From Thermococcus sp. 2319x1 (GTDB lineage: Archaea > Methanobacteriota_B > Thermococci > Thermococcales > Thermococcaceae), in the NCBI RefSeq assembly GCF_001484685.1, contig NZ_CP012200.1, positions 1-32,320 on the forward strand: a stretch of 32,320 nt of DNA. Reading direction: 5' to 3'. Made by a program: the position numbers and the translations under genes. Below are positions 19,214 to 29,789 of the stretch, piece after piece. The notes under the pieces are model-generated. The model saw nothing but the letters and a program-made list of their open reading frames with translations. It was not told where the DNA came from and searched no databases. Numbering within the stretch: position 1 is the first letter of the stretch; each line of letters opens with the position of its first letter.

Positions 19214-20458
19214 ATGGGGGTTAGCGAGTTGAGAAAGCTCGTTATATATGAGGTCTTCCCAAGAAACCACACTGAAGAGGGGACTTTAAAAGCCCTGACT
19301 GGGGATTTGGAAAGGATAAAATCCCTTGGCGTGGACTTTGTCTGGTTGATGCCAGTATACCCGATAGGGGAAGAAGGAAAAAAGGGTTCTCTTGGCTCCC
19401 CTTATGCCATAAAGGATTACAGAGCAATAAATCCCGAGCTGGGAACGTTTGAAGACTTTAAAAAACTCGTGGAAAAAGCTCACAGGCTTGGTCTTAGGGT
19501 TATGATAGACATTGTATACAATCACACCTCGCGGGATTCAAAGCTTTTGGAAGAGCATCCCGAATGGTTCTACACAGTTGATGGCAAGCCTTCAAGAAAG
19601 GTTCCGGACTGGAGTGACGTTTACGACCTTGACTACTCCAACAGAGAGCTCTGGGAATATCAAATAGAGACCTTGAAGTTCTGGGCTAAATACGTGGATG
19701 GATTTAGATGCGACGTTGCTCCTCTTGTGCCCTTGGAATTCTGGGAGAAAGCCAAAAAAGAAGTTGCCAAGATTAATCCCAACCTCATCTGGCTGGCTGA
19801 GACGGTACATCCCTCTTTTGTTAGGTGGCTGCGGGAGAGGGGATTTAGGGTTCATTCGGATGTTGAGATGCATCGGGTGTTTGATATTACCTACGACTAC
19901 GATGGAAGAGAGATGCTTGAAAGGTATCTGCGGGGAGAAAGAAGCCTATCAAGCTATATTGACTACCTCTACGTTCAGGATACGTTGTATCCAGCGGATT
20001 ACGTTAAGCTTAGATTTCTGGAGAATCACGATTTACCACGGGCGGCTGAGATATTTAGGGATGAACTTCGCCTGAAGAACTGGACGGCCTTCATTTTCAT
20101 GCTAAAGGGAGCCGTGCTAATATATGCGGGGCAGGAGTATGCTATCAAAAACCAGCCAAGCCTCTTTGAAAAGGACCCTATTCCCTGGGAAAAGGGAGAT
20201 GAGGAGTTTTCATCTTTTGTCAAGAGATTAATCGAGATTAAAAGGTCAACTGATTGCAACGATCAGAGGGAGTATCTGTTGAAGGAAGGAGTTGCGGTTG
20301 TGGAATGCAAAGATGCGGTTGGAATCTTTAATCTGGAGGAAAAAATCGGAGAGATTGCTCTTGAAGTTAAGGGGAGGGATCTTTTGAGTGGCAAAAAAGT
20401 TGAAAGCAAAGCAGGCAGGATTGAGGTCTCTTTCGAGCCAGTGATAATTTCTCTCTGA
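19214..20458 (+). CDS. Alpha-amylase family (GH13) glycoside hydrolase, cytoplasmic
   Basis: A 414-residue (beta/alpha)8-barrel enzyme. The GH13 conserved regions are present: MIDIVYNHTS (region I), DGFRCDVAPL with the nucleophile Asp (II), NLIWLAETVH with the acid/base Glu (III) and LRFLENHDLPR with the third acid (IV). There is no signal peptide, so it should act inside the cell on maltodextrins or similar glucans. The exact specificity (hydrolase or transferase) cannot be told. It is compact, lacking obvious extra carbohydrate-binding domains; a short C-terminal beta domain begins near residue 340. ATG 19214 follows GGTGAT by four bases. Possible regulation by a TrmBL1-like factor is noted in the promoter entry. 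Confidence 0.88.
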   Translation: MGVSELRKLVIYEVFPRNHTEEGTLKALTGDLERIKSLGVDFVWLMPVYPIGEEGKKGSLGSPYAIKDYRAINPELGTFEDFKKLVEKAHRLGLRVMIDIVYNHTSRDSKLLEEHPEWFYTVDGKPSRKVPDWSDVYDLDYSNRELWEYQIETLKFWAKYVDGFRCDVAPLVPLEFWEKAKKEVAKINPNLIWLAETVHPSFVRWLRERGFRVHSDVEMHRVFDITYDYDGREMLERYLRGERSLSSYIDYLYVQDTLYPADYVKLRFLENHDLPRAAEIFRDELRLKNWTAFIFMLKGAVLIYAGQEYAIKNQPSLFEKDPIPWEKGDEEFSSFVKRLIEIKRSTDCNDQREYLLKEGVAVVECKDAVGIFNLEEKIGEIALEVKGRDLLSGKKVESKAGRIEVSFEPVIISL

Positions 20459-20509
20459 TTGTTCTCCGTGAATCAATAAGATTAAAAACCGTCGGGAGAA
20501 TATTTCAAT

Positions 20510-21019
20510 ATGAGCCTATCTTCAAGAGATGCCCCCTTCCTACAAAAAATCCCTCTGAGCCTTGTCACAATTAGACCTGCCACCCTCTTTGACCTAAGTG
20601 AGGTTATGCGCATTGAAAGGCAGTCTTTTAGGGAGCAGTACCCGAGAGGCTTATTTTTGATGTTCCTTGAGGCAAATCCGGAGACGTTTCTGGTTGCAGA
20701 ATACAACGGGAAGATAGTGGGCTATGTGATGGGATATCTAAGACCGGACATGGAAGGCCACATAATGAGCATAGCCGTCGATCCCCTTTATAGGGGGAAT
20801 GGGATAGGCAAAGCCTTGATGGAGGCTGTTATAGACAGGTTAATAAAACGTGGTGCCAGGTATATAGGACTTGAGGTCAGGGTCAGCAACAAGAGGGCTA
20901 TAGAGCTCTACGAAAAGCTGGGCTTTAAGAAGATGAAAATCATAAAAGGCTACTACTCCGATGGCGAGGATGCCTACTACATGGTTCTCACACCAGACGC
21001 ATGGGGTGGCAAGAGTTGA
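20510..21019 (+). CDS. rimI: GNAT N-terminal acetyltransferase (RimI/Ard1-like)
   Basis: A 169-residue acetyl-CoA-dependent acetyltransferase. The GNAT core shows VTIRPATLFDLSEVMRIERQ (residues 19-38), HIMSIAVDPLYRGNGIGKAL with the pyrophosphate-binding R-x-x-G-x-G/A loop, and LEVRVSNKRAIELYEKLGFK. It belongs to the RimI/NAA10 group that acetylates N-terminal Ser, Ala or Met residues of proteins in archaea. The first 18 residues extend beyond the usual start; a shorter start is not excluded. No binding site is seen, but AGATTAAAAACC (20479-20490) fits leaderless initiation at ATG 20510. Its end overlaps endA. Confidence 0.9.
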   Translation: MSLSSRDAPFLQKIPLSLVTIRPATLFDLSEVMRIERQSFREQYPRGLFLMFLEANPETFLVAEYNGKIVGYVMGYLRPDMEGHIMSIAVDPLYRGNGIGKALMEAVIDRLIKRGARYIGLEVRVSNKRAIELYEKLGFKKMKIIKGYYSDGEDAYYMVLTPDAWGGKS

Positions 21020-21528
21020 GCGAGTTCAAATTTTACCTAAGCGGGGATAGGGTTTTCAGCACGATGGAGAGTGCTATAAACAAGCTCTACAACAAGAGGC
21101 ATTACGGGGAGGTTGTAAAGGGCAAGCTTTTCCTCTCTCTCATTGAAGCCGCTTATCTATTGGACAAAGGGTGGATTAAAGTTTTTGATGGTGAAAAAGA
21201 GCTCAGCGTTCAAGAGCTTTTCGAAATTGGAAGGAAAAAAGATGAACAGTTTGATTTAAAGTTTTTGGTTTACAGGGATCTCAGGGATAGAGGTTACACT
21301 GTGAAGACAGCTCTCAAATACGGCTCCCACTTTAGGGTGTACCGCAAAGGAATGGAGGAGCATGCGGACTGGCTAATCTGGGTGGTGAGTGAGAACCAGA
21401 AGATGTATCCAAACGACTTAACCGCTAGGGTTAGGGTTGCCCATGGGGTTAGAAAAAAGATGGTTCTGGCGGTGGTCGATGAGGACAATGACGTGGTTTA
21501 TTACCACATAGGCAGAATAAAATTCTAG
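21016..21528 (+). CDS. endA: tRNA-intron (splicing) endonuclease EndA
   Basis: A 170-residue subunit of the homodimer/tetramer-class archaeal splicing endonuclease, which cuts bulge-helix-bulge motifs in pre-tRNA and pre-rRNA. Catalytic residues are Tyr109 in GSHFRVYRKG, His116 in EEHADWL and Lys147 in VAHGVRKKMV, matching the family's Tyr-His-Lys triad (His-to-Lys spacing 31). I place the start at TTG 21016. It overlaps the rimI stop as TTGA and has GGGGTGG 6 bases upstream, giving the family length. An in-frame ATG at 21001 would add five residues but lacks a binding site. The TAG stop forms a CTAG palindrome shared with the convergent DUF835 gene. Confidence 0.94.
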   Translation: MSEFKFYLSGDRVFSTMESAINKLYNKRHYGEVVKGKLFLSLIEAAYLLDKGWIKVFDGEKELSVQELFEIGRKKDEQFDLKFLVYRDLRDRGYTVKTALKYGSHFRVYRKGMEEHADWLIWVVSENQKMYPNDLTARVRVAHGVRKKMVLAVVDEDNDVVYYHIGRIKF

Positions 21529-22037
21529 TCTGCCCTTATCTCCCTAAACTCCCTCCTTAAGAGGTTTGCGTGTCTTTTTTCAACAGCGCTCTCATCCAAG
21601 GGAACCAAGATTATCGTGTTGTTGAGCAGGGCGTAATCGTTCAATGCTACCAGGAACTTAAAGACCGGCTCAAACCCATTTTCTACCATGAGATATTCGA
21701 TTCCATCTAGTAAAATTATCTTTGGAGTATCTCCTGACTTCATGAAGTCTACCAATGTCTGCAGAAGGAACTCAAGCCTTAGTGGATGTATATTTCCTTC
21801 CCCATCTATTTTTGTGAGCCATAAAATTGGGGTTTGCTCAAGCTTTAGCTTTTCTTTAAGCACGTGCCTTGGTGTTCTGGAGACAATTAGTCCGGCCCTC
21901 CCTTTCAACAGATCCAACAGTAATGAGTTGCAATCTCCTGTTTTGCATAGATACACCCCGGGGGCAAATTTTTCCTCTTTCCCCTCTATTTCTATCACTG
22001 GAGAGAGCCCGTATCTTGCTATGATGTTTTTTAGCAT
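21525..22037 (-). CDS. DUF835 domain protein, probably N-terminally truncated by a frameshift
   Basis: A 170-residue protein with the DUF835 core: KFAPGVYLCKTGD (residues 23-35), GRAGLIVSRTPRHVLKEKLK (51-70), PILWLTKIDGEG, IILLDGIEYLMVENGF and IILVPLDESAVEKRHANLL. The fold resembles KaiC/RecA-like regulators without a Walker A; its function is unknown. ATG 22037 has AGGTGG 6-7 bases upstream, but the same frame stays open for 28 more codons and encodes a membrane helix (about GLIAFALLFLILRW) with no start codon. A short signal-like reading frame in another frame sits just above (22111-22179). The second DUF835 protein in this window is membrane-anchored, so the ancestral gene probably was too. 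Confidence 0.75.
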   Translation of the reverse strand: MLKNIIARYGLSPVIEIEGKEEKFAPGVYLCKTGDCNSLLLDLLKGRAGLIVSRTPRHVLKEKLKLEQTPILWLTKIDGEGNIHPLRLEFLLQTLVDFMKSGDTPKIILLDGIEYLMVENGFEPVFKFLVALNDYALLNNTIILVPLDESAVEKRHANLLRREFREIRAD

Positions 22038-22110
22038 GGATATCCACCTGAGAATAAGGAAAAGAAGTGCGAATGCTATTAGGCCATTCCCAAGAGTGTT
22101 TAGGAGCTTT

Positions 22111-22179
22111 CTATCTAAAGGCTAGGCTTATCAACAATAACAGGACTATCAGTGAGAGGGTTGCAGTTATGACGCTCAT
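22111..22179 (-). pseudogene. 22-residue hydrophobic reading frame, likely detached N-terminus of the DUF835 gene
   Basis: It opens with a very strong site, GGAGGTGAG, 5 bases before ATG 22179, and encodes MSVITATLSL followed by IVLLLLISLAFR, then TAG. The TAG lies in a region where the DUF835 frame is already open. Deleting one T from the run CCTTTAG (22122-22116), or a +1 slip there, would join it to LDRKLLNTLGNGLIAF and on into the DUF835 domain. The joined protein would have two membrane helices and a cytoplasmic domain. It may be a mutation, a sequencing error, a programmed shift or a genuine micro-protein. A TATA box (GTATTTAAATCC, 22213-22224) precedes it. Confidence 0.5.
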
Positions 22180-22264
22180 CCCCTCTCACCTCCGGGAATG
22201 AGTAGGCATATGGATTTAAATACCTTTCGTTAGAAAAAGTTCAAAAATAAAAAGTTAGGAAAAA

Positions 22265-23452
22265 TCACTTCAAGAATCCGGTCTTCTTTCCGAGGTCTTC
22301 GAAGGCATCTATGACGTACTGCAGGTCCTCCTTGCTGTGGGCTGCCGAAGGTTCGAGCCTTATTCTCGCTGTGCCTAATGGGACTGTCGGATAAACTATC
22401 GCCTGTGCAAAGATGTTGTATTCATCGTAGAGTCTTCTTGAGAACTCCTGGGCCAGCTTTTCGTCGTAGAGCATTACCGGGGTTATCGGGTGCTTGGTGT
22501 TTCCTAAGTCATAGCCAATGTCTCTAAGTCCCTTCTGGAGGAAGTGTGTGTTGTCCCAGAGCTTTTTAACGAGCTCATCGCTCTTCTGGAGAATCTCAAC
22601 GGCTGCAATAGCGGCAGCAACGTCGGGTGGATTCAAGGCGGATGAGAACAGGAATGGTCTTCCTCTCTGCTTTAAATATTCTATCGCCTCCTCTGGCCCT
22701 GCAACATAGCCACCAATGACACCGAAGGCCTTGCTTAGGGTTCCCATCTCGAAGTCAACTCTGTCGTGGAGCTTGTAATGGTCAACAATACCCCTTCCAT
22801 GTTCACCCAAAACACCCTCACCGTGGGCGTCGTCAACGTATACCATGGCATCGTACTGTTCCGCTAATTCCACGATCTCGGGGAGAGGAGCAAGGTCACC
22901 GTCCATGCTGAATACACCATCGGTGACAATAAGCTTCTTTTTCTTGTCTTTCACTTCTTCAAGCTTTTTCTTGAGGTCCTCCATGTCAAGGTGCTTGTAG
23001 ATAACTTTTGGTGCACCGCTTAAGCGCATTCCATCAATGATGCTTGCGTGGTTTAGCTCTTCGCTTACAAAAACTCCATCCTCATCTTTCTTTATGAGGG
23101 CACTTATTGCCCCGAGGTTTGCATTGTAGCCGCTCTGGAAGAGAATGGCCGCTTCCCTCTTCTTGAACTTTGCAAGTTTTTCTTCAAGCTCCACGTGGAG
23201 CTCCATGGTTCCGGCTATCGTTCTAACAGCTCCAGCTCCAACGCCATAGTCAAGAATGGCCCTTATAGCTGCCTCCTTAATTTTTGGATGTGCCGCTAAG
23301 CCAAGATAGTTGTTGGAGCACATGTTTAGAACTTTCTTTCCGTCCACAATCACCCAAGGGCCTTGGGCGCTCTGGAGAACTCTAATTCTTACATAAAGTC
23401 CTTTTTCTTTAAGTTCATTAAGCTCCTCGGTAATCCAGTCAAGCTTTGCCAT
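22265..23452 (-). CDS. kbl: Glycine C-acetyltransferase (2-amino-3-ketobutyrate CoA ligase) type PLP enzyme
   Basis: A 395-residue alpha-oxoamine synthase of fold-type I. Visible motifs are [20 protein letters not shown] (about residue 44), [40 protein letters not shown] and the PLP lysine in [14 protein letters not shown] (about 245). The enzyme interconverts 2-amino-3-oxobutyrate plus CoA with glycine plus acetyl-CoA, following threonine dehydrogenase. The closely related 8-amino-7-oxononanoate synthase cannot be fully excluded by eye, but no biotin genes are nearby. ATG 23452 is chosen because GGTGGTG lies 3-9 bases upstream; a TTG at 23464 overlaps that site. CTTTTATATG near 23486-23495 is its TATA box. 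Confidence 0.85.
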
Positions 23453-23574
23453 GGGCACCACCAAGTGGAATATTGGTATTTCTCACATATAAAAGTTTTT
23501 CACGCATCTCAACTAACAAGGGACCAACACCAGTCTCCTTTTGATGAAGTTTGGAGATTCTTTTGGGTTCCAAA

Positions 23575-23588: not shown

Positions 23589-23631
23589 TCGTGATTATAA
23601 AGTGTTTAGGTCACGATAACAGGTGGTCGCA

Positions 23632-26448
23632 ATGGCTGATGAAGTAAAAGAGGTCAAGGAAGTTAAAATTCTTGAAAAACCGTGGGTTGAAAAGTACAGG
23701 CCTGAGAGGCTTGATGATATCGTGGGACAAGATCACATAGTGAAGAGGCTTAAGCATTATGTTAGAACTGGTTCGATGCCGCATCTTCTCTTTGCAGGTC
23801 CACCCGGAACGGGAAAGACGACTTCGGCTCTGGCCCTCGCGAGGGAGCTTTTTGGCGAAAACTGGAGGCACAACTTCCTTGAGCTGAACGCGAGCGATGA
23901 GAGGGGCATAAACGTCATCCGTGAGAAGGTAAAGGAGTTCGCGAGGACTAAGCCGATAGGCGGCGCGAGCTTCAAGATAATCTTCCTCGACGAGGCTGAC
24001 GCTTTAACGCAAGATGCCCAGCAAGCCTTGAGGAGAACCATGGAGATGTTTTCGAGCAACGTTAGATTTATACTAAGCTGTGTCACAGGTGACACAAGAA
24101 TATACACCCCAGACGAGAGAGAAGTGAAGATCAGAGACTTCCTTAAGTTTTACGAAAAGGGCCTTGTGAGAGAGGTATCCAACAGGAAGGGGAGGGATAC
24201 AGTAATAGCAGCAGTTGCCTTTAACTCCAAGATAATCGGCCACCCGGTCTTCAGATTGACCCTTGAGAGCGGGAGGGTGATAGAGGCAACGGGAGATCAC
24301 ATGTTTCTAACTCCAAGAGGATGGGTACAGACTTATGACCTCAAGGAAGGGAGCGAAGTTCTCGTAAAGCCTACCCTTGAGGGAACACCCTATGAAGTCA
24401 GCTCAGAGCACATTATAGATCTTAAGGAATTTTACGAGTTCGCCAACAAGTTGGAGCTTGAAAGGGGAAGAAAACCCATTGGAAAGGCGAAGAGCTTCCG
24501 TGAGCTGGTGACTAAGGATAAAGAGAAAATCCTTGCGAGGGTGCTTGAACTGAAAGCTGAGATGGAAAATGGCTTAACGGTGAGGGAAGCCGAGATCCTC
24601 CAAGAGATCCCACGCGAATGGACATCTCGGGAAGAAATTCAAGAGAAGGTCGGGCTCTCGAGGGTGAGGCTGAATCAGCTCCTTAAGAGGTTAGAAGAGA
24701 AAGGCTACGTCGAAAGGAGGATAGAAGGGAAAAAGCAACTCATCAGGAAGCTCCGCGATGGGGTTCCCCTCAGGAATGTCGCTGATGTTAAGAGAATCCT
24801 TGAGAAAGAGTTCGGGATAAAGATAAGCCACACAGCCGTTAGGAGGCTCCTTGCCGGTGAACTCGATGGTTCGGCTTATCACTTACTTCGTGAGGTCAAG
24901 GAGAAGTGGCTGGTAAGATACGACGACGAAAGAGCAGGAATTTTGGCGAGAGTTTTGGGCTTCCTGCTTGGTGATGGGCACCTCGCCAAGGATGGAGCAA
25001 GAATATGGTTCAACTCCTCAAAGAAGGAGCTTAAGGCACTGGCGGAAGATCTCAAGAAGCTCGGTTTGAATCCCTCAGAAATAATAGAGCGTGAATTCTC
25101 GTCGGAGATAGGCGGAAGGAAGGTGGATGGCAGAATACACATGCTCTATGTTGACAGCAGGGCCTTCCATGCCCTTATGCGTTTCTGGGGCGTTGAAGCC
25201 GGGAACAAGACGAAAAAGGGTTATCGGGTTCCAAAGTGGATAAAGAATGGCAACCTTTTCGTCAAGAGAGAGTTCCTCAGGGGGCTCTTTGCTGCGGACG
25301 GAACCAAACCCTACCCCGGAAAGTATAACTTCAATGGGATAAAACTTGAGATGCGTGCAATGCGGGAGAGCCTTGAAAAGACGACCGAGTTCTTTAACGA
25401 CATTGCCGAGCTCCTCAGAGAGTTTGACGTTGATTCGAAGGTGATAGTAAGCCCCTTCGGAGACAGATTCATAGTGAGACTTGCTGTTACACCAAACGAT
25501 GTCAATTACCTGAAGTTCTTAACGAGAATCGGCTACGCCTACGTCAAAGACTCTTATGCCCGGCTGGTCGGTGAATACCTCAGAATAAAGCTGGCGTACA
25601 AGGAGGTCATTCTGCCCCTGATAGCGGAGAAAACCGTTGAGATTGCCGAAAGAAGCAACCCAGCACAGGCCGCCAAGCTGCTCGGCTTGAAGAGGGACTT
25701 TGTAGTTAACAGGCTTAAAGGGATCCCCATCGGTCTAACCAGGGATTTCATGACATTTGAGGACTTCATGAAGGAACGCGTTAGATCTGGATACGTCATT
25801 GAGAGGGTCATAAAGAAGGAAAAGCTTGGGTATCTCGACGTGTATGACGTTACCTGCGCCTCTGATCACAGCTTCATCTCAAACGGCCTCGTAAGTCACA
25901 ACTGCAACTACTCATCAAAGATCATTGAACCCATACAGAGCAGATGCGCCATCTTCCGCTTCAGACCGTTAAAAGATGAAGATATCGCAAAAAGATTAAA
26001 GTACATAGCCGAAAACGAGGGGCTTGAGCTTACTGAAGAAGGTCTTCAAGCACTCCTCTACGTTGCCGAAGGAGATTTAAGGAGAGCCATAAACGTTCTC
26101 CAGGCTGCAGCTGCCCTTGACACAAAGATAACCGATGAAAACGTATTTTTGGTTGCAAGCAGGGCCAGACCAGAAGACGTTAGAGAAATGATGCTTTTAG
26201 CTTTAGAGGGCAACTTCCTCAAGGCCAGGGAGAAGCTCAGGGAGATACTCCTAAAGCAAGGTTTAAGCGGTGAGGATGTTCTTATACAGATGCACAAAGA
26301 GGTGTTTAACCTTCCAATAAGCGAACCAAAGAAGGTTGCCCTGGCTGATAAAATAGGAGAGTACAACTTCAGGCTTGTTGAGGGAGCAAATGAAATGATT
26401 CAGCTTGAAGCTCTCTTGGCGCAGTTTACGCTGCTTGGCAAGGATTAG
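23632..26448 (+). CDS. rfcS: Replication factor C small subunit, interrupted by an intein
   Basis: The 938-residue precursor contains a 330-residue clamp-loader small subunit plus an intein at residues 150-757. The extein has the RFC start [20 protein letters not shown], Walker [10 protein letters not shown], Walker [11 protein letters not shown] and, after the intein, the SRC motif IQSRCAIF that supplies the arginine finger. With RfcL it loads the PCNA sliding clamp at primer ends. ATG 23632 has AGGTGG just upstream; a GTG three codons earlier overlaps that site. rfcL follows after 10 bases. The intein separates sensor 1 from the SRC motif, so activity needs splicing. Host sequence just before the insertion is unusually GC-rich. 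Confidence 0.97.
24079..25902 (+). other. Intein in RfcS (608 residues, intact LAGLIDADG motifs, winged-helix segments)
   Basis: In-frame insertion between VRFILS and CNYSSKI. It begins CVTGDTRIY, has the block B motif TGDH, and ends GLVSHN before Cys+1; all canonical splicing residues (Cys1, penultimate His, Asn, Cys+1) are present. Two LAGLIDADG blocks keep their acids: [14 protein letters not shown] (about 24955-24997) and [12 protein letters not shown] (about 25276-25311). Before the endonuclease lie winged-helix-like sequences: [20 protein letters not shown] with [12 protein letters not shown] (about 24628-24723), and [20 protein letters not shown] (about 24787-24846). A third HTH-like piece is near 25660-25725. 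It looks splicing-competent and possibly still homing-competent. Sampled lines suggest a higher GC content than the host. Confidence 0.96.
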
Positions 26449-28949: not shown

Positions 28950-29747
28950 TTAGGAAATCTCCTTAATGAGCTCCTCTTCCCTCTTTTCCTGAAACTCTTT
29001 CAAGAGTATTGTCTCTTGAGTTTTGTCTAAGACGTTTGGAGGCAAATATAAGATTAGCATTGACTCGTTGGAGATTACGTAGTCCTTTAATGAGAACAAA
29101 AACTTTGCAACTGAAGAAAAGTTGTTGTAGAGTATTAGATATTCAATCCCCTCAAAATACACAACTGCTTTTCCTCCTCTTTCCTTTAAAAATCTTAAAA
29201 TAGCATCCTGAATCACGTGGAGCTTTGTGGGATCCGCTGCTTCATTACTCTCCAGCCTGCTTAGCCATATAAACTTATCCGGCTCCAGCCGGTACTTTTT
29301 CACCCATAGCTCCTTTTGAGTCCTGCTAACAACGAGCACCCCATTTGAATGCCTTGATAGGAAAGCTAATCCATGCGGGCTTACAGGTTTTTTAAACGCA
29401 TATGCCCCGGTTATTGGTGAAAGTGATATCTTTCTGGGGTATTTTCTTGGTTTTATTTCTGTGGGGCTTAGAGCACTGAGGTAATAAACAACGGATGATA
29501 CCAGAATTATGTAAGAGAGGGTGTAGAAAATCGCCGATACCAACCATAGCTTGGCTTCACTTAAAGAATCGACCACAACTCCAAGTGAGCCTGCAACAAA
29601 AAGGGAGGCGGAAATTAGAAATTTCTTGGCTAGGTTTTTTCCGGGTTCCTGGATGTTTTTGTAGTAATAGAGGGCTCTTAGGCTGAGGGCTATTCCCATC
29701 ACCACAAGGATTGTACCTGCTAGGACTCCGAGGATATTCATATACAT
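28950..29747 (-). CDS. Membrane-anchored DUF835 protein
   Basis: A 265-residue protein. Three hydrophobic helices (about residues 3-25, 42-60 and 66-90) precede a cytoplasmic DUF835 domain (about 115-258) with HSNGVLVVSRTQKELWVKKY, KFIWLSRLESNE, VVYFEGIEYLILYNNF and MLILYLPPNVLDKTQ. The family is abundant in Thermococcales and its function is unknown. It is a paralog of the protein at 21525-22037; both lack a Walker A motif. ATG 29747 has GAGGGG 6 bases upstream; a GTG nine codons earlier would contain that site. An AT-rich TATTTAAAC near 29780-29788 may be its promoter, inside the end of moaA. Confidence 0.8.
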   Translation of the reverse strand: MYMNILGVLAGTILVVMGIALSLRALYYYKNIQEPGKNLAKKFLISASLFVAGSLGVVVDSLSEAKLWLVSAIFYTLSYIILVSSVVYYLSALSPTEIKPRKYPRKISLSPITGAYAFKKPVSPHGLAFLSRHSNGVLVVSRTQKELWVKKYRLEPDKFIWLSRLESNEAADPTKLHVIQDAILRFLKERGGKAVVYFEGIEYLILYNNFSSVAKFLFSLKDYVISNESMLILYLPPNVLDKTQETILLKEFQEKREEELIKEIS

Positions 29748-29789
29748 CCTTTTCCCCTCAAGGATATTTCCCACGAGATGTTTAAATAT

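Follow-up and report, generated by a model that had tools for sequence, protein, structure and literature searches.

A split DUF835 gene in Thermococcus sp. 2319x1 lacks a 158-bp block including a membrane helix and lies at a variable site in Thermococcaceae

Homopolymer slippage underlies phase-variable (contingency) loci. The nearest precedent found for a split gene in the Thermococcales is that for chitinase, which is encoded by one frame in T. kodakarensis and by two ORFs, PF1234 and PF1233, in Pyrococcus furiosus (PMC3575233). The locus described here resembles PF1234/PF1233 in that the downstream domain of a split Thermococcales gene loses its N-terminal targeting part, and programmed frameshifting was considered for that gene too (PMC3575233). 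It differs in that the chitinase frame is split by a one-nucleotide insertion, removal of the inserted base having been studied in vivo, whereas here 158 bp with a whole helix are gone (PMC3575233). The domain concerned, DUF835, is tabulated as an inactivated KaiC-like domain (iKaiC) in PMC5847659, where the table itself lists it joined to REC/PAS in Methanomicrobia and Thermoplasmata.

We analyzed a stretch of 32,320 nucleotides from Thermococcus sp. 2319x1 (the window), in which both pieces of the gene lie on the minus strand. The first piece, at 22179-22111, consists of 22 codons (MSVITATLSLIVLLLLISLAFR) closed by TAG; it is a remnant of helix 1, and its first nine codons are the same as those in a related genome, G002. 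Above it lie the Shine-Dalgarno sequence of the original gene, GGAGGTGA (22186-22193, minus strand; an 8-nt match), and CGAAAGGTATTTAAAT (22214-22229, minus strand), an archaeal BRE/TATA-like sequence that is identical in G002 and a second relative, G005, and that is a candidate promoter. The second piece, the DUF835 frame, is bounded at its upper end by TAG at 22124-22122, is open from 22121 (PLDRKLLNTLGNGLIAFALLFLILRWIS) and runs for 198 codons without a stop. Between 22121 and ATG 22037 it contains no ATG, GTG or TTG, and the segment 22121-22038, a remnant of helix 3, has the hydropathy of a membrane helix (mean over 19 residues, 2.11). The 170-aa ORF that starts at this ATG (22037-21525, minus strand) has no membrane helix by hydropathy scoring. 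The two frames share 11 bases (22121-22111). Their arrangement is confirmed: translation agrees with the initial annotation on both the 22-codon hydrophobic frame ending in TAG and the startless membrane helix above the first ATG of the open DUF835 frame, as do the 8-nt match for the strong Shine-Dalgarno of the former and hydropathy for the latter.

Thirteen genomes of the genus, among them that of the window, were searched for relatives. Judged by the DUF835 protein, the closest are G002 (95% identity) and G005 (94%), and in both the gene is a single open frame of 272 codons, 270 of them from the ATG. The loci are syntenic: the DNA on one flank can be aligned for about 10 kb, at 92.0 and 91.6% identity, and that on the opposite flank aligns in shorter pieces. 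Alignment, and counting from both ends, show that 158 bp of the G002/G005 gene are absent from the window between bases 22121 and 22122 (minus strand). The G002 protein has hydrophobic segments at residues 6-24, 43-61 and 78-96 with DUF835 after them, and the absent block comprises the end of helix 1, a basic loop, helix 2 and the next loop. More distant family members in other species have the middle segment, which places the loss on the window's side. Because 158 = 53 x 3 - 1, one base short of whole codons, the frame is broken, and a one-base change only seems to mend the joint. The initial annotation had proposed that both frames were once one membrane DUF835 protein and that orthologues be examined for a continuous frame; G002 and G005 have exactly such a frame. 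It had also explained the split as a single-base frameshift in a gene for two helices. That candidate is ruled out by the missing 158 bp, which include a whole helix, and the parent type seen in G002 has three hydrophobic segments. Removal of one base, as it suggested, would indeed join the frames, but helix 2 would be among 53 residues still missing from the fusion. The continuous three-helix membrane DUF835 protein of the Thermococcaceae is thus not encoded in the window, which is without helix 2 and has a broken frame.

A variant of this history is that an in-frame 53-codon deletion is combined with a single wrong base at the joint, introduced in sequencing or assembly, and that the gene actually encodes a two-helix fusion. 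One base would restore the frame, and a shorter DUF835 paralogue of 207 codons occurs in the same genome (L028). However, the joint contains a run of only three T and no long homopolymer. Further, we reason that in a two-helix product lacking the basic KYRRRF loop after helix 1, DUF835 would be expected on the opposite side of the membrane, and we consider this variant very unlikely. An assembly error had been among the options of the initial annotation; alone it cannot make both the deletion and the divergent patch described below, although a single-base error at the joint is possible.

Another option raised there was programmed +1 frameshifting, by which GCC TTT AGA TAG would lead into the DUF835 frame and give a two-helix protein. 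The 11-base overlap of the frames would be sufficient for such a shift, but TTT AGA is not known as a +1 motif, and the joint is a deletion scar. Orthologues show no shared shift site: 26 of the 32 close-family genes at the site (see below) are continuous, and in the six broken ones, the window's included, the breaks differ in position. Among 94 Thermococcaceae genomes, none was found with an orthologue in this two-frame arrangement. We regard recoding at this joint as barely credible.

The region around the joint differs from its relatives in more than the missing block. At 22009-22150 (minus strand) the window has 42 mismatches to G002 in 142 bp, and from 22007 down to the stop it has 16 in 483 bp. 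For 22121-22008, within which G002 and G005 are identical, dS to G002 is 0.63 and dN is 0.28; in the rest of the DUF835 frame they are 0.13 and 0.008. Neutral divergence after loss of function was ruled out as the source of the patch, since dS there is about 5-fold the value in the remainder of the frame. Changes in the patch are mostly conservative, as expected if the allele had long encoded a working protein. Since the patch exceeds the neutral rate and its changes are mostly conservative, we infer that the joint region probably recombined with a diverged allele. Similarly low identity to G002 occurs at 20301-20480 and 23801-23880 within the 5.2 kb compared, so local divergence alone is not unique to the patch. 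A DNA search of the 94 genomes for the donor allele returned, besides the patch itself, only a 43-base match in G002, and no relative was detected in viral contigs or plasmids that would point to mobile carriage. With one genome of the species compared, the allele of the window could be the state of a single strain. Mosaic divergence is also seen elsewhere. Between G089 and G090, dS rises from 0.029 in the membrane part to 0.505 in DUF835, a pattern that likely reflects module-sized recombination between two species, and between G026 and G049 the values are 0.084 and 0.426. In the other five intact pairs, dS is similar in both parts (G002-G005, G086-G091, G025-G043 and G040-G036) or saturated (G031-G045).

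From this divergence pattern, we propose that in the window's lineage a diverged allele replaced, or recombined with, the region from helix 1 to helix 3. The 158-bp block with helix 2, the loss of which is shown by comparison, would have disappeared at the recombined place, shifting the frame as well, after which the anchored protein could no longer be made. We think it likely that the ancestral gene encoded a 270-codon three-helix membrane protein and that it both had its helix 1-3 region recombined or replaced and lost the 158-bp block.

What is left is a full DUF835 domain. The 170-aa ORF matches PF05763 with 123.7 bits against a cut-off of 33.1. An AlphaFold2 model of the 170 residues, built from a six-sequence alignment and of moderate confidence (mean pLDDT 69, pTM 0.70), is RecA-like; its closest structure is FlaH (4yds; Z 12.8 over 149 residues at 3.5 A), and KaiC (8dba) scores Z 12.1. 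Only residues 1-20, 77-83 and 166-170 have pLDDT under 50, and the model shows a whole domain from about residue 21 onward. A sequence-profile search of the PDB returned weak unrelated matches and no KaiC. The Walker A motif (GxxxxGK[S/T]) is absent from all 18 full-length family members, and none was seen by eye in the window translation. The RecA-like model and the absence of Walker A suggest that what is left could fold into a soluble KaiC-like protein without catalytic activity. In its full DUF835 domain and KaiC/FlaH-like predicted fold without Walker A, the ORF resembles the iKaiC entry, which differs in that the table gives REC/PAS fusions, the parent here being a three-helix membrane version (PMC5847659). 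The DUF835 output domain of the parent was probably a cytoplasmic, ATPase-dead KaiC-like domain; the lost part would be the membrane anchor and the presumed sensor. A second DUF835 gene lies in the window about 7 kb away (28950-29774); it is 84% identical in G002 and G005, and the window copy has the shorter open frame, 279 codons against 328.

After the deletion, the old promoter and Shine-Dalgarno would drive a 22-residue hydrophobic peptide ending at TAG. The intact DUF835 domain has its own ATG 22037, preceded at 7 nt by AGGTG (22045-22049, minus strand); translation from this ATG on the same mRNA may give a soluble protein that lacks the anchor. The motif is a 5-nt Shine-Dalgarno match, and when 173 internal ATGs from 21 ORFs of the window were compared, 3 had one as good; the initial annotation had remarked that AGGTGG precedes this ATG. 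Both the ATG and its AGGTG are absent from G002 and G005. Changes specific to the window in 22007-21525, relative to G002 and G005, comprise 12 synonymous and 3 non-synonymous substitutions, with about 41 non-synonymous expected under neutrality; therefore neutral evolution can account for no more than about 19% of the branch, and the 170-aa ORF appears to have evolved under purifying selection for most of it. Going by these substitutions, either the break is recent or the DUF835 domain is still used.

One interpretation is that the gene was remodelled to make a soluble KaiC-like protein from ATG 22037 on the mRNA of the old promoter. The start signal, the purifying selection on the branch and the completeness of the predicted domain from about residue 21 favor this interpretation, the first two giving some support to the soluble-protein option of the initial annotation as well. 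On the other hand, the Shine-Dalgarno match is a single start site, the low non-synonymous count would follow equally from a recent break, and the arrangement is without parallel in the orthologues of the 94 genomes. We hold remodelling to be possible, at somewhat below an even chance. Alternatively, the locus is a plain pseudogene in which the deletion is recent, both pieces are non-functional and the DUF835 frame has merely not yet decayed. Five other genomes carry broken copies of the gene at this site, G092 retains a 37-codon scrap of it, and the family is unmatched in 50 of 84 stretches there, so the gene is dispensable; the DUF835 frame of G090, which has no sensible start, looks like decay. 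Against decay in the window stand the new ATG with its 5-nt match, equalled at so few internal ATGs, the 198 codons without a stop and the few non-synonymous changes, though a very recent break fits the last as well. We give the pseudogene reading close to an even chance. The leftover may thus be a soluble remnant or a recently dead gene, and we put soluble translation from ATG 22037 against plain decay at about even odds.

The gene occupies a site defined by two conserved neighbors. Upstream lies a BioF/Kbl-family PLP-dependent acyltransferase (22265-23464, minus strand; TIGR01825, 678.6 bits), and the convergent neighbor is endA, encoding tRNA-intron lyase (21001-21528, plus strand; TIGR00324, 129.1 bits). 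Farther along the window, 23623-26448 encodes a replication factor C small subunit with an intein (LAGLIDADG and intein-splicing domain matches). The acyltransferase was found at E <= 1e-120 in 85 of 94 Thermococcaceae genomes (86 rows), and 84 stretches below it were examined with the 18 full-length family members as queries; G077, which has no 3' end, and the second G010 row were left out. The family was matched in 34 of the 84 stretches: 26 intact close relatives, an intact distant one (G035), six broken genes and the scrap in G092, where the last 37 codons of the DUF835 gene, at its C-terminal end, remain beside endA and next to an unrelated inserted ORF (L086). Five of the 50 stretches with no match are under 1000 bp. 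In stretches that lack the gene, endA may come almost directly after the acyltransferase (as in G003, G007 and G011), or other ORFs occupy the gap. In G081 (L112:120-1871), a GmrSD-family (type IV restriction) gene lies between the BioF/Kbl gene and endA, replacing the DUF835 gene. A long ORF in the matching interval of G032 (L140) appears similar to it by eye. The BioF/Kbl-endA interval looks like an integration site for variable cargo.

In addition to the window's, five genes at the site are broken, as judged against homologues, and an assembly error is possible in each of these frame changes. G089 has one extra base at the junction of the membrane part and DUF835, and G090 has lost one base shortly after this junction; each of these two genomes (L088, L089) thus carries its own frameshift at or near the module boundary. 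In G054, the frame changes inside helix 2. A family copy located away from the site in G065 (L162, G065:C60) is likewise frameshifted inside helix 2. G084 (L097, about 690-715) and G013 (L153, in a reverse-oriented stretch, about 1527-1560) belong to different genera, and in each one C appears to have been lost from the run that encodes a conserved Pro-Pro of DUF835, at the same position in both. In appearing one C short in this run, they resemble contingency loci. Unlike such loci, however, their runs are short (an expected 5 and 7 C prior to the loss), no on/off strain pair was seen among genomes that number one per species, and the window's own break is a deletion.

Breaks affect 6 of the 32 close-family genes at the site, a set that excludes the G092 scrap and the distant G035, compared to 2 of 44 other family rows at E <= 1e-30 (Fisher p 0.063), which were counted by eye by open-frame length with the unplaced G077:C57 left out. 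For the DUF835 paralogue at 28953, 3 of 64 rows have an internal stop (p 0.056). None of the 86 acyltransferase rows has an internal stop. The excess of breaks at the site over other copies is a trend only. A broader proposal is that the BioF/Kbl-endA site is one of rapid turnover, at which the membrane (sensor) half of a KaiC-like signalling protein is swapped, decoupled and silenced time and again in Thermococcaceae, the output domain often being spared. Diversifying or frequency-dependent selection would act on it, and slippage in the Pro-Pro C run would be one switch. We consider this proposal unlikely, and we take the events at the site to be mostly ordinary gene decay or remodelling.

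The locus is not named in the literature searched, which is no proof of its being unpublished. Our analysis corrects an apparent frameshift to a traceable deletion, and it shows why a neat two-frame picture calls for comparison with orthologues ahead of any appeal to recoding. It also draws attention to a site whose content varies among Thermococcaceae: time and again a membrane KaiC-like signalling gene has been broken there, swapped or replaced, the replacement in one species being a restriction enzyme gene. Should the membrane half vary under selection, the site would provide a rare means of learning what the poorly known DUF835 proteins do.
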